DNA of 64,000 bases from an uncultured bacterium. GTDB lineage: Bacteria; Desulfobacterota_D; UBA1144. Shown piece by piece: positions 52,127-56,841 of the stretch. The stretch is from NCBI GenBank assembly GCA_913050325.1, contig CAJWZP010000006.1, positions 1-64,000 of the forward strand. The letters run 5' to 3'. How positions within the stretch are numbered: position 1 is the stretch's first letter; every line of letters begins with the position of its first letter. The translations under genes and the position numbers were made by a program. The notes beneath the pieces were generated by a model, which saw only the letters and a program-made list of their open reading frames with translations, was not told the DNA's origin and ran no database searches.

Positions 52127-52330
52127 ATGCCAAACGGGAAAATAAAATGGTTCAATGCTAAGAAAGGTTATGGTTTCATTGAACCGGAAGATGGTAGCAA
52201 AGATGTCTTTGTTCACATCACAGCTCTTGAAGCAGCTGGAATTGATAACCTGAATGAGGGTGATTCAGTTTCATTTGAAGTTGTTAGCGAAAGAGGAAAA
52301 GAAAAAGCAAGTGATTTAAAAACTTTATAG
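52127..52330 (+). CDS. Cold-shock domain protein (CspA family)
   Basis: 67-residue single-stranded nucleic-acid-binding protein. RNP1 [10 protein letters not shown] and RNP2 VFVHITALE are present, with [14 protein letters not shown] at the start. The ATG at 52127 follows AAAGGAGGG; the frame is open further left but runs into tRNA-Glu. Probably co-transcribed with the two tRNAs and ended by the terminator at 52361. Confidence 0.96.
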
Positions 52331-52360
52331 AATAAGTAATTTTCACAGTATTTTCATTTA

Positions 52361-52426: not shown

Positions 52427-52558
52427 ATGGCTAGAAAAGACAACACCAATTTAAAGAATCACAAGGTTATTTCTAAATATATTTATTCCAAAAAACTTGA
52501 TAAAGCTTTTAAATATTTGGAGAAAATATCATATAATGATAAAAAGCTAAAGAACTAA
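52427..52558 (+). CDS. Possible small basic protein, 43 residues
   Basis: The frame MARKDNTNLKNHK...KKLKN is strongly basic, with no membrane segment and no recognised family. It starts 35 bases after the terminator, and its last four bases overlap the stop of the MerR-type gene on the other strand. A TTGACT box lies at 52393-52398 but the matching -10 is weak. No clear ribosome site is visible. Confidence 0.4.
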   Translation: MARKDNTNLKNHKVISKYIYSKKLDKAFKYLEKISYNDKKLKN

Positions 52559-53499
52559 ATTTTTCTTAAAACATCCGTTCTAATATCTTCTAAAGCGTTA
52601 GGCAAGCTGAATAAATCATATATTTGATGAGAACCTATCTTTGAGCATGTTTTAGAATAAATGCTAGAACGTTTACCGTTTATTATTATTTCAAATTCAC
52701 CGCCCAAACCATTTCTAATTCGTTCCAACTCTAAAGGAACCGTTGGATCATTTAGAGGAAATAAAATACTCATTATAACAGCGCTACAACTTGAATTTTT
52801 AGCTGCTTCGCAAATATCACGAGATGACAAATCTGTTCCTAGATAGACAGGGTTCCAACCAGTTGAAACTGCTAAACAAGCATTAACCAAGCAACCTAAC
52901 TCAGCCTTTTGACCTTTTGGTGTTGCTACTAATACAAATGGATTATTAGGATTATAATTTTTAAATGATGATCTATAATTTTCTAAGTAATTTCTAATTA
53001 CAGCATTTGCAAACCTTTCTTGTGACTTAGATATTTTATTATTTTTCCAAAGCCTACCGACATGTTTAATAAAGGGAACCATAAATTTATGAATTACATA
53101 TATTGCACCTAAATCTAAAGCTACATCATAAATAGCTTTTTCCATTTTACGCAAATTGTATTCATTAAGAGCTTCAACACAACTATCAAAATAAGGTCTT
53201 GCAGAATTTGTTAATTGTTCTAATTCAGGATAAACAACGGAACTTTTAGTTGATTCCAATTCATTAACTAGGCTTCTTAAATCTTCAACTTTATAATTAC
53301 CAATTTCTTGCAATGTAAATCCTATTCTCTTTGCTTCAAGCATTAACTGCAATATTTCTAAATCTTTATCAGTAAACCTTCTACTTCCTCTTTCGGATCG
53401 AGATATTTTTAGGATTGGGTATCTTTCTTCCCACTTTCTTATTTGGTCTGATGTCAAACCAGTAATCTTACTTACAATTCTAATTGGATACTCTTTCAT
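52555..53499 (-). CDS. MerR/CarH-like regulator with degenerate B12-binding domain
   Basis: 314-residue transcription factor. Residues 1-70 are a MerR winged helix (IRKWEERYPIL, RRFTDKDLEIL). Residues about 95-185 are the helical B12-cap domain and residues 186-314 a Rossmann-like B12-binding domain. In CarH the helical bundle has W-H, then EH, and the fold has an axial histidine in a PxGExHELG loop. Here the positions read W151-K152, E161-R162 and PKGQKAELG (194-202) with no histidine. It is therefore unlikely to bind adenosylcobalamin the CarH way. Divergent from a sigma-70 gene with a repeat-rich shared promoter region, suggesting it controls that sigma factor. Confidence 0.88.
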   Translation of the reverse strand: MKEYPIRIVSKITGLTSDQIRKWEERYPILKISRSERGSRRFTDKDLEILQLMLEAKRIGFTLQEIGNYKVEDLRSLVNELESTKSSVVYPELEQLTNSARPYFDSCVEALNEYNLRKMEKAIYDVALDLGAIYVIHKFMVPFIKHVGRLWKNNKISKSQERFANAVIRNYLENYRSSFKNYNPNNPFVLVATPKGQKAELGCLVNACLAVSTGWNPVYLGTDLSSRDICEAAKNSSCSAVIMSILFPLNDPTVPLELERIRNGLGGEFEIIINGKRSSIYSKTCSKIGSHQIYDLFSLPNALEDIRTDVLRKI

Positions 53500-53524: not shown

Positions 53525-53614
53525 TATAATGTCATATAAATGTCCAATGTCAATAGTAATTTGTCCAGAAAAAATAAAATTATTTTAAAAAAAAGCTGGA
53601 CAAGATTATTGACA
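53525..53614. promoter_or_regulatory. Divergent promoter/operator region with TGTC[CA]A elements
   Basis: ATGTC occurs three times in direct order at 53529, 53540 and 53547. On the minus strand a TTGACA (53548-53553) and TATAGT (53523-53528) give a 19-base spacer, the unusual length favoured by MerR-type regulators, and the repeats fall inside it. Further right, TTGTCCAG (53561-53568) and CTGGACAA (53596-53603) form a perfect 8-bp inverted repeat, the second followed by another TTGACA (53609-53614). Probably the binding region of the adjacent regulator (inference). Confidence 0.55.
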
Positions 53615-53645
53615 TAAGTTATCTTTAAAATGTGAGGTGATAAAT

Positions 53646-54638
53646 ATGAAAAATTTAAACTCCAATAGTAAAAAAAATAACTTCTTAAATGCTAAGAATA
53701 ATTATGTTTACAACGAATCTTCAGGTCAAGAATATGAGACTGTAAAAGATTACTTTTCAAGGGCACTGGTCACACCTTTACTTACTGCTGTTGAAGAAAA
53801 AGAACTAGCATCAAAGATAAAAAATTGCAAAGATAAAATTATTTCTCTGCAGAAACAGCTTAAGAAAAATGAAAATAATAATAAATTGAACTCTTTTATA
53901 AAAGTTTTTGAACAAAAAAAATCTCAACTTATTCAAGCTTTCACAAAGGCAAATCTAAGATTGGTCGTTAGTATTGCCAAAAAGTATAATGGTAGAGGAC
54001 TACCCTTACTAGATTTAATACAAGATGGTAATGTAGGTTTGATAAGAGCTGTTGAAAAATTTGATCATACTAAAGGATTTAAGTTCTCTACATATGCTGC
54101 CTGGTGGATACATCAATCTATTACTAGAAGCATCATGGATCAATCAAGGACAATCAAAGTGCCAGTATACATTCTTGAAAAATCAGCAAAAGTATTCAAA
54201 GCTTTTAAGGAACTCGAAGACAAATTAAACAGAAAACCAGAATTTTTTGAAATTGCTGAAGAAGTAGGTTTACCAGAAGAAGCTGTAAAACAAATCTTAG
54301 AATCCGGTACTGATACCTTTTCACTTGATTCGCCAATCTCAAATGAAGAAAATGCAACTTTTGTTGATTTTCTTGAGGATGAAAACGATCGCCCTGATGA
54401 TTTGAGTGGTAAAATAGCTTTATCTCAATCTATATCTACAGCACTTACCCAGCTTGACCAACGTGAAAAAGAGATAATAGAAATGCGTTTTGGTTTTAAT
54501 GGCTCTAATACATATACTCTTGATCAAATTGGGAATAAATATAATTTAACTAGAGAGAGAATTAGGCAAATTGAAAAAAATGCACTAAAAAAAATTCAAA
54601 GACTTGAAGGAGATAAGCTAAAAAGCTTTATGAACTAG
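53646..54638 (+). CDS. Sigma-70 family factor (group 2-like)
   Basis: 330 residues from the ATG six bases after GAGGTG (a GTG at 53637 is an alternative). Region 1.2/2.1 begins near [17 protein letters not shown]. Region 2 contains [37 protein letters not shown] and the -10-recognition helix [15 protein letters not shown]. Regions 3 and 4 follow, with [13 protein letters not shown] as the -35 helix-turn-helix. There is no region 1.1, so it is an alternative factor, not RpoD. Divergent from the MerR-like regulator, which may repress it. Confidence 0.92.
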
Positions 54639-54796: not shown

Positions 54797-54805
54797 TAGT
54801 ATTAT
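54753..54805 (+). repeat. 16-bp perfect inverted repeat over a start codon
   Basis: Left arm 54753-54768 and right arm 54790-54805 are exact reverse complements (core ATACTATTAATAC), with a 21-base loop. The right arm ends on the first two bases of the start codon of the next gene (ATG 54804-54806), so the folded RNA would hide its translation start. No U-run follows, so it is not a typical terminator. Confidence 0.85.
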
Positions 54806-56219
54806 GGGCAGTTTTTCATTTTCTAGCATTATAGATTCTTCTCTTTCAGAGACTTTTAATTGGCATGAGAAATTATTCTGTTTAGAAAGGCTCACTCCAC
54901 CCTGGGAAAATATTGAAATTGTAGACAGAAACTATATAGATACTAATAACTTAATTAATGGTGGATCTCTATCATTAATTCATAATGTTTTTCCATTTAT
55001 CAAATTAAAGTGGAAAATAAAACATTCAAATTATATTAAAGATGAGATTTTTAGAGATTACATGGTTAAAGGCCCATTAAAAAAGTGGACTCATGATCAT
55101 ATATTCCAAAATGACAATAATCAAACAAAAGTAATAGATAAAATATCTTTCAATACTCATATATTTGAAGATATATTAGATAAATGGATTGAAAAACAAT
55201 TGGAAAGTACTTTTGAATATAGGCATAAAATTTTAAAACATGATTTATGTTCTATAAATCTTAAAAATCAAAATAAGGAATTTTATATTCTCATAACAGG
55301 TGGAAATGGATTGATTGGAAAGCACTTAATTCCTATGTTAAATTCGTTTGGATATAAAATAATACAACTCAAATATAATAAAAAAATAAAAAATTACAAA
55401 TCAATCAATATAGAATTTAATGATTTTATCAAAATTGAATGGAACCCTTATTTAAATGAGGATTTAGAATTACCAAAAGAAATATCCGATAAGATAAAAT
55501 ACGTAATAAATCTTTCTGGTGAAAATATTTTAGGCATTCCAACCAAAAAAAAGAAAGAGTTAATTATGGAAAGTAGAAAAATATCTACAAATCGATTATT
55601 AAAAATTATAAAGAAAAATAAAATAAATTTACAATGTTGTATACATGCATCAGCTACTGGTTTTTATGGAAATGATTTAAATAATGAAATTATTGAGTCT
55701 TCAACAAAAGGAGATGGCTTCCTATCAGATACAACAAAAATTTGGGAAGACTTTCAAAATAAATTTAATTCTATTAGCAATAGAGTTGTAAATCTCAGAA
55801 TTGGGGCTGTTTTATCTAGAAAAGGTGGTTTTTTAAAATCTATGACTATGCCCTATAAAATGAGCTTGGGAATAAAAATAAAATCTGATAATTTTATCAG
55901 TCATATATCAATTGAAGATTTGTGTAGGTCAATTTGCTATATTTTAAAAGAAGAAAATTTAAATGGACCTATAAATGCAGTTTGTCCTCAACCGGAAAAA
56001 TTATCTAATATTTTCAATATATTGAGAAGAAAATATACATCAAATATAAATATTAATATTAACAAGAGGTTTATAGAGAAAATTAGCCCAGAACTTAATA
56101 ACGAACTATTATTTTCAAATCAGTATATAATTCCAAAGAAACTATTGGATAACGGTTTCCAATTTTTAAATAATAATTTTAATGACTCAATAAATAGCAT
56201 GTATCCTAAAGGTGGTTAG
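54804..56219 (+). CDS. SRPBCC domain fused to TIGR01777 SDR-type epimerase
   Basis: 471 residues. Residues 1-150 resemble a polyketide-cyclase/SRPBCC ligand-binding domain (SETFNWHEKLFCLERLTPPW, GPLKKWTHDHIF). Residues about 155-455 are a TIGR01777-type NAD(P) epimerase with ILITGGNGLIGKHLIP, INLSGENI, CIHASATGFYG, RIGAVLSRKGG and HISIEDLCRSI. The fused form is known in several phyla and is often near photolyase or light-response genes. Preceded by the hairpin; followed by pdxH one base later. Confidence 0.88.
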   Translation: MGSFSFSSIIDSSLSETFNWHEKLFCLERLTPPWENIEIVDRNYIDTNNLINGGSLSLIHNVFPFIKLKWKIKHSNYIKDEIFRDYMVKGPLKKWTHDHIFQNDNNQTKVIDKISFNTHIFEDILDKWIEKQLESTFEYRHKILKHDLCSINLKNQNKEFYILITGGNGLIGKHLIPMLNSFGYKIIQLKYNKKIKNYKSINIEFNDFIKIEWNPYLNEDLELPKEISDKIKYVINLSGENILGIPTKKKKELIMESRKISTNRLLKIIKKNKINLQCCIHASATGFYGNDLNNEIIESSTKGDGFLSDTTKIWEDFQNKFNSISNRVVNLRIGAVLSRKGGFLKSMTMPYKMSLGIKIKSDNFISHISIEDLCRSICYILKEENLNGPINAVCPQPEKLSNIFNILRRKYTSNINININKRFIEKISPELNNELLFSNQYIIPKKLLDNGFQFLNNNFNDSINSMYPKGG

Positions 56220-56220
56220 C

Positions 56221-56841
56221 ATGAAAATTGGTGAGACTAGAAAAGAATATAAAACAAGAAAAATAATAATTAATTCCGATTGTCCTATATTAACTTTTAA
56301 AAATTGGTATAAGAAGGCTGAAAAGAAGGTTTCTGAACCAAATGCATTCAACTTAGCTACATCCTCTGGAAAATATGTTTCTTCAAGAATGATGTTACTA
56401 AAAGATTATGGAGAAACTTTTATCTTTTTTACAAATTTTCATAGTAGAAAAGGTGTTGAACTATTTAATAATAGTAAGTCCTCAATGAATTTCTGGTGGA
56501 AAGAAATTCAACAGCAAATAAGAATTGACGGAGTAGTTAAAAAAATACAAAAAGAAGAATCAAAGGCATACTTTTATTCAAGACCTAAGAGCAGTCAAAT
56601 AGGAGCCTTTTTGTCGAACCAAAGTCGTAAAATAAACTCCTATGAAGAGTTAATAAAGGAATATAAACTTCTAATCAAAAAATATAAAAATGATATAGTT
56701 CCCTATCCAAAAAATTGGGGTGGATATGAATTAACACCTTATAGAATAGAGTTTTGGCAAGGTGGATCATATAGGCTTCATCAAAGAGTTGAGTTTATTA
56801 AGGCACGAACAAAATGGCAAATGAAAAAACTAGCACCTTAA
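56221..56841 (+). CDS. pdxH: Pyridoxamine 5'-phosphate oxidase
   Basis: FMN enzyme making PLP from PNP or PMP. 206 residues from the ATG at 56221, preceded by AAAGGTGG. NAFNLATSSGKYVSSRMMLLKDYGE, FFTNFHSRKG, the QIRIDGVV FMN region, YFYSRPKSSQIGAFLSNQS and C-terminal WQGGSYRLHQR are canonical. Overlaps the DUF1285 gene by 28 bases. Confidence 0.95.
   Translation: MKIGETRKEYKTRKIIINSDCPILTFKNWYKKAEKKVSEPNAFNLATSSGKYVSSRMMLLKDYGETFIFFTNFHSRKGVELFNNSKSSMNFWWKEIQQQIRIDGVVKKIQKEESKAYFYSRPKSSQIGAFLSNQSRKINSYEELIKEYKLLIKKYKNDIVPYPKNWGGYELTPYRIEFWQGGSYRLHQRVEFIKARTKWQMKKLAP

Follow-up and report, generated by a model that had tools for sequence, protein, structure and literature searches.

A CarH-like regulator with a replaced B12 pocket, encoded divergently from a sigma-70 gene

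The regulator gene and its surroundings

The window, meaning the whole stretch of 64,000 nucleotides that was analysed, comes from an uncultured bacterium, presumably a pelagic Dadabacterium with a genome of ~1.0 Mb. Its named relatives are metagenome-assembled and single-cell genomes with labels including Dadabacteria UBA1144 and Deltaproteobacteria TMED58. The window encodes a MerR-type regulator resembling the light sensor CarH, divergent from a gene for a group-2-like sigma-70 factor, with two putative operators in the region between them (Table 1). For the sigma gene, the GTG listed as its start sits within a GAGGTG ribosome-binding-like stretch (53637-53648), and the true start is probably the ATG at 53646 that follows GAGGTG and is used by relatives. 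On the other side of the regulator, a gene for a cold-shock protein (52128-52331) lies just after genes for tRNA-Lys and tRNA-Glu, and in several family genomes a contig ends near this side.

Table 1. Features of the regulator locus, in positions of the window
Feature	Position	Strand	Remarks
MerR/CarH-like regulator, 314 aa	52555..53499	-	ORF exact; Pfam MerR_1 (7e-15) and B12-binding_2 (3e-5)
MerR DNA-binding head, residues 4-68	53296..53490	-	RKWEERY, against RxWERRY in CarH
Four-helix cap, residues 101-178	52966..53199	-	W151 and E161 retained; K152/R162 at the H132/H142 positions; K158 at V138
Rossmann (B12-binding-like) domain, residues 186-313	52561..52944	-	A199 at the H177 position; N274 at the first G of GG
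Putative operator, regulator side	53530..53565	-	GACA at 53565-53562, 53551-53548, 53544-53541 and 53533-53530; overlaps promoter-like TTGACA
Putative operator, sigma side	53597..53615	+	TGGACA-N6-TTGACA, two TnnACA 12 bp apart; overlaps candidate -35 box
Divergent sigma-70 factor, group-2-like	53637..54638	+	Regions 2, 3 and 4; region 1.1 not detected
NAD-dependent epimerase (SDR39U1/DUF1731-like)	54804..56219	+	Pfam; downstream of sigma
Pyridoxamine 5'-phosphate oxidase (PdxH-like)	56218..56841	+	Pfam; order conserved

The regulator was found in 12 of the 14 family genomes examined, in 13 copies, and the sigma partner lies beside it throughout the family. Genomes G003 and G006 lack both genes; their assemblies are 90-93% complete, and gaps are possible. 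The epimerase follows as in the window at seven further loci (L033, L035, L036, L038, L039, L093, and L094), and the order sigma factor, epimerase, PdxH, and small protein is common to four family genera. In one genome (G005), a contig end holds an additional copy of the regulator, near-identical to the copy of a genome from another genus (G008; loci L025 and L015), which points to transfer or mis-binning. No relative was found in the viral contigs searched, and the open-access literature searched yielded no account of Dadabacteria having a CarH family without the histidines.

A proteorhodopsin gene is present in only two family genera, matching the two pelagic clades described in PMC8115339, and the regulator is therefore not linked to rhodopsin. 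At one such locus (L042, G000:C2:97714-98358), the proteorhodopsin gene is directly followed by a gene for a CrtI-like oxidoreductase, and no GACA repeat pairs were seen there.

As the first-pass annotation had read from the sequence, the MerR head, the helical cap, and the Rossmann fold are all present, as judged from Pfam for the head and cap and from the AlphaFold model and Foldseek for the fold, and the protein is predicted to retain a CarH-like fold. PDB searches group it with Thermus CarH, both by sequence (phmmer, 2e-15) and by full-length fold (Foldseek, 1.5e-14), and the model compares with the cobalamin-binding part (CBD) of CarH at a TMt of ~0.83. The regulator scores 79.6 bits against the NCBIfam CarH equivalog, below the cut-off of 400, and the Pfam B12-binding model (PF02310), which matches the sister protein L018, finds no match in it. 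Across the family, 46 of the 67 residues at positions 4-70 and 30 of the 38 residues in the cap core (133-170) are invariant. Sequence comparison indicates purifying selection on all domains: dN/dS (Nei-Gojobori) is ≤0.11 in every domain and every pair with a finite dS, values being given only where dS could be estimated, as several pairs are saturated.

Replacement of the B12-pocket residues

Residues were matched by alignment to the annotated CarH of Thermus thermophilus HB8, whose W131, H132, E141, H142, and H177 correspond to W151, K152, E161, R162, and A199 of the regulator. This bears out the earlier reading that all three histidines are gone, the last within a PKGQKAELG loop that holds no histidine at all, while the tryptophan and glutamate remain; G148 and G202 are retained as well. 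Further family-wide changes are E129 to R149, V138 to K158, E175 to Q197, and GG to NG (N274), of which the glutamine at the E175 position occurs in histidine-bearing sisters too. The invariant charged residues R149, K152, K158, and R162 now line the old pocket. An assembly or frame error as the cause was considered and rejected, the ORF being open in 12 genomes.

CarH is defined by a Wx9EH motif in the cap and by D/ExHx2G...GG (PMC8156234, PMC9304148). The former reads Wx9ER in all 13 family copies, and the latter reads Q197-x-A199-x2-G202 with N274-G275. Since both motifs fail, the regulator is by definition not a CarH, and it probably works like one at DNA.

The annotation had proposed conservation of the substitutions within the clade as support, and this is what the alignment returned: all 13 family copies have H142, H177, and GG replaced, and none of the 8 aligned class relatives (seven f4, one f6) does. 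All eight relatives retain the tryptophan, the glutamate followed by H142, H177, and GG, and carry arginine at the H132 position; even relatives with an intact pocket can thus lack H132, and on these alignments the diagnostic losses are those of H142, H177, and GG. Motif reading of three more f4 loci showed Wx9EH and the H177 loop there too, with no GGR seen in L145.

With nine pocket columns left out of the alignment, the tree groups the histidine-free copies in one clade, with support of 100/100 and a long stem (2.2 changes per column). The simplest reading is a single loss accompanied by rapid change; the placement of f6 as sister is weak, and long branches meet.

A histidine placed elsewhere to coordinate cobalt would have spoken against the loss. 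The only invariant histidines in the family alignment are H137 and H146, which lie on the same helix as W151 (model residues 132-152), 14 and 5 residues ahead of the tryptophan. Judged from the helix geometry, without coordinates, coordination of cobalt by either is unlikely. The accompanying statement that the axial histidine is needed for B12 binding holds for Thermus CarH, in which H177A abolishes AdoCbl binding (PMC4557120), but is too strong as a general rule, since some B12-dependent enzymes have a cysteine, an arginine, a hydrophobic residue, or no ligand in its place (PMC13331322). From the substitutions, loss of the CarH photochemical pocket is well supported.

Candidate operators and the sister modules

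CarH sites are described in PMC9304148 as 11-bp tandem direct repeats of nnnnTnnACAn. In all 11 intact family regions, GACA elements on the regulator strand are spaced 21 bp apart, and additionally 11 bp in the genus of the window, while GACA pairs on the sigma strand are 11-12 bp apart. This spacing was significant in each of the 11 regions (p<0.001 against dinucleotide shuffles) for a motif picked after inspection, and the motif recurs across genera and agrees with the published CarH unit. On the sigma side, 8 of the 11 regions hold pairs of the strict TnnACA form, 11-12 bp apart. The putative family operators have their repeats in pairs, not as three in tandem. Promoter-like sites in the scan were no more numerous than in shuffled sequences.

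Among the eight sisters, three carry three tandem repeats counted as perfect: L018 and L019 upstream of carH, and L021 in an offset register. Two or three repeats, one of them imperfect, were found in L016, L020, L022, and L023, and pairs in L017. In the window's own genome, a strict search for three tandem repeats returned none, with overall matches not exceeding the reversed control, and a strict operator search run across relatives returned just two sites there, both at the regulator locus. No wider direct regulon was therefore seen, as far as pattern searches and individually read loci sampled it, and no intergenic GACA repeats were found at the family photolyase or rhodopsin loci that were read.

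In the histidine-bearing sisters, the divergent partner of carH is a fasciclin gene and/or the counterpart of the sigma gene, and in the f4 sisters genes for a photolyase and a TudS-DUF1722 (RudS-like) protein lie close to carH. RudS genes often occur within light-responsive operons (PMC11417400). Given this association and the nearby photolyase, the ancestral carH-sigma module was probably light-responsive. Three f4 loci (L088, L089, and L090) combine a carH, fasciclin, and group-2-like sigma cluster with nearby photolyase and TudS-DUF1722 genes and CarH-type repeat operators at carH; this cluster is likely a B12-light-responsive module driving a sigma-70 factor.

A proposed B12-independent repressor and its known relatives

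Taken together, the retained fold, the family-wide replacement of the pocket, purifying selection, and CarH-spaced repeats at candidate promoters suggest that the regulator descends from CarH, no longer senses light through AdoCbl, and has been kept as a repressor that works without B12 on its own gene and on the sigma gene. We hold this reading to be fairly probable. The MerR head would contact the candidate repeats, with the protein acting as an oligomer (probably a dimer) that forms without B12, and both its own gene and the divergent sigma gene would be repressed. Release would follow from a signal other than AdoCbl photolysis, for which photolyase/cryptochrome proteins, redox, singlet oxygen, or another ligand are candidates, and the sigma factor would then switch on the wider response. 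The regulator may also activate rather than repress.

A pair of K/R198 and D223, at the positions of Thermus R176 and D201, is present in 11 of the 13 copies and missing in the sisters. We take the Thermus pair to be a salt bridge at the CarH dimer interface. PMC9304148 mentions a crucial Arg-Asp pair at this interface. Domain conservation and the K/R198-D223 pair would fit a retained B12-free dimer or oligomer, without amounting to proof. Of the two options in the first-pass annotation, another ligand and a constitutive dimer, either may apply; the divergent sigma gene and the CarH-like operator had not figured in it.

The old pocket could instead have been re-tasked, such that another small molecule or a partner protein releases the repressor, as happens to class II LitR on illumination of a short-LOV protein (PMC9758184). 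We regard this as possible but doubtful. The invariant charged lining and the conserved cap core suggest a preserved function, but this conservation could equally serve oligomerisation. No ligand candidate emerged, and neither a LOV nor a BLUF partner was found in the family genomes searched. There, PAS_9 matches were weak and those read were sensor kinases, no PAS locus examined contained the LOV motif GxNC[RQ]F[LI], and no BLUF photoreceptor was found. Similarly tentative is the broader notion that the whole marine family turned a B12 light receptor into another sensor, with the sigma circuit and the operators retained and the pocket remade around positively charged residues.

It is improbable that cobalamin is still bound in a His-off mode, with B12 level or light sensed by other chemistry. 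B12 enzymes lacking a His ligand offer a precedent, W151, E161, G148, and G202 are kept, and the genome encodes MetH- and mutase-like B12-binding proteins; however, both CarH motifs including GG are altered here, the H177A exchange alone is reported to stop binding in CarH, and the Pfam model separates the regulator from its sister. Decay into a functionless protein would account for the missing pocket residues and for the joint absence of regulator and sigma gene in two of the 14 genomes, but is very hard to reconcile with an ORF open in 12 genomes, low dN/dS, and conserved operators and gene order.

Set beside known systems, the B12-independent repressor proposed here shares its MerR head, cap, and Rossmann fold with CarH of T. 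thermophilus and the class I LitR of Bacillus megaterium, and its putative operators partly resemble theirs in having TnnACA repeats 11 bp apart that overlap candidate promoters, but it differs in its Wx9ER, QxAx2G, and NG sequences and in having only two-repeat operators. In Thermus HB8, carH is divergent from phytoene synthase and photolyase genes, whereas the regulator of the window is divergent from a sigma-70 gene. CarA of Myxococcus xanthus is likewise a B12-independent relative of CarH, according to PMC9304148, but its pattern is the opposite one: CarA retains the axial-histidine motif and EH and has lost the tryptophan, and in our alignment the regulator keeps tryptophan and glutamate and has lost the histidines. 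Class II LitR proteins (PplR and PmlR2 of Pseudomonas), repressors of the LitR/CarH type that do without B12, are by analogy the nearest functional parallel, although they have lost clear similarity in the Rossmann domain and rely on a short-LOV partner (PMC9758184), while the regulator keeps the fold and no LOV partner was found in the family genomes searched. A homologue on a plasmid of Gemmatirosa kalamazoonensis (L138, 1501-2403) has also lost the tryptophan, glutamate, axial histidine, and Wx9EH, through other substitutions; it falls on a separate branch of the tree, and its loss of the pocket was probably independent.

B12-independent relatives of CarH were thus known before in CarA and class II LitR, and the family described here is a further variant. 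Within a single class, it provides a before-and-after pair: histidine-intact CarH-like proteins with CarH-type operators and with photolyase and sigma genes beside them, and a family without the chromophore ligands in which the circuit is kept. Two questions can be approached with it: in what way a photoreceptor comes to do without B12, and what signal operates a sigma-factor switch in bacteria of the surface ocean that are streamlined, uncultured, and in part rhodopsin-bearing.
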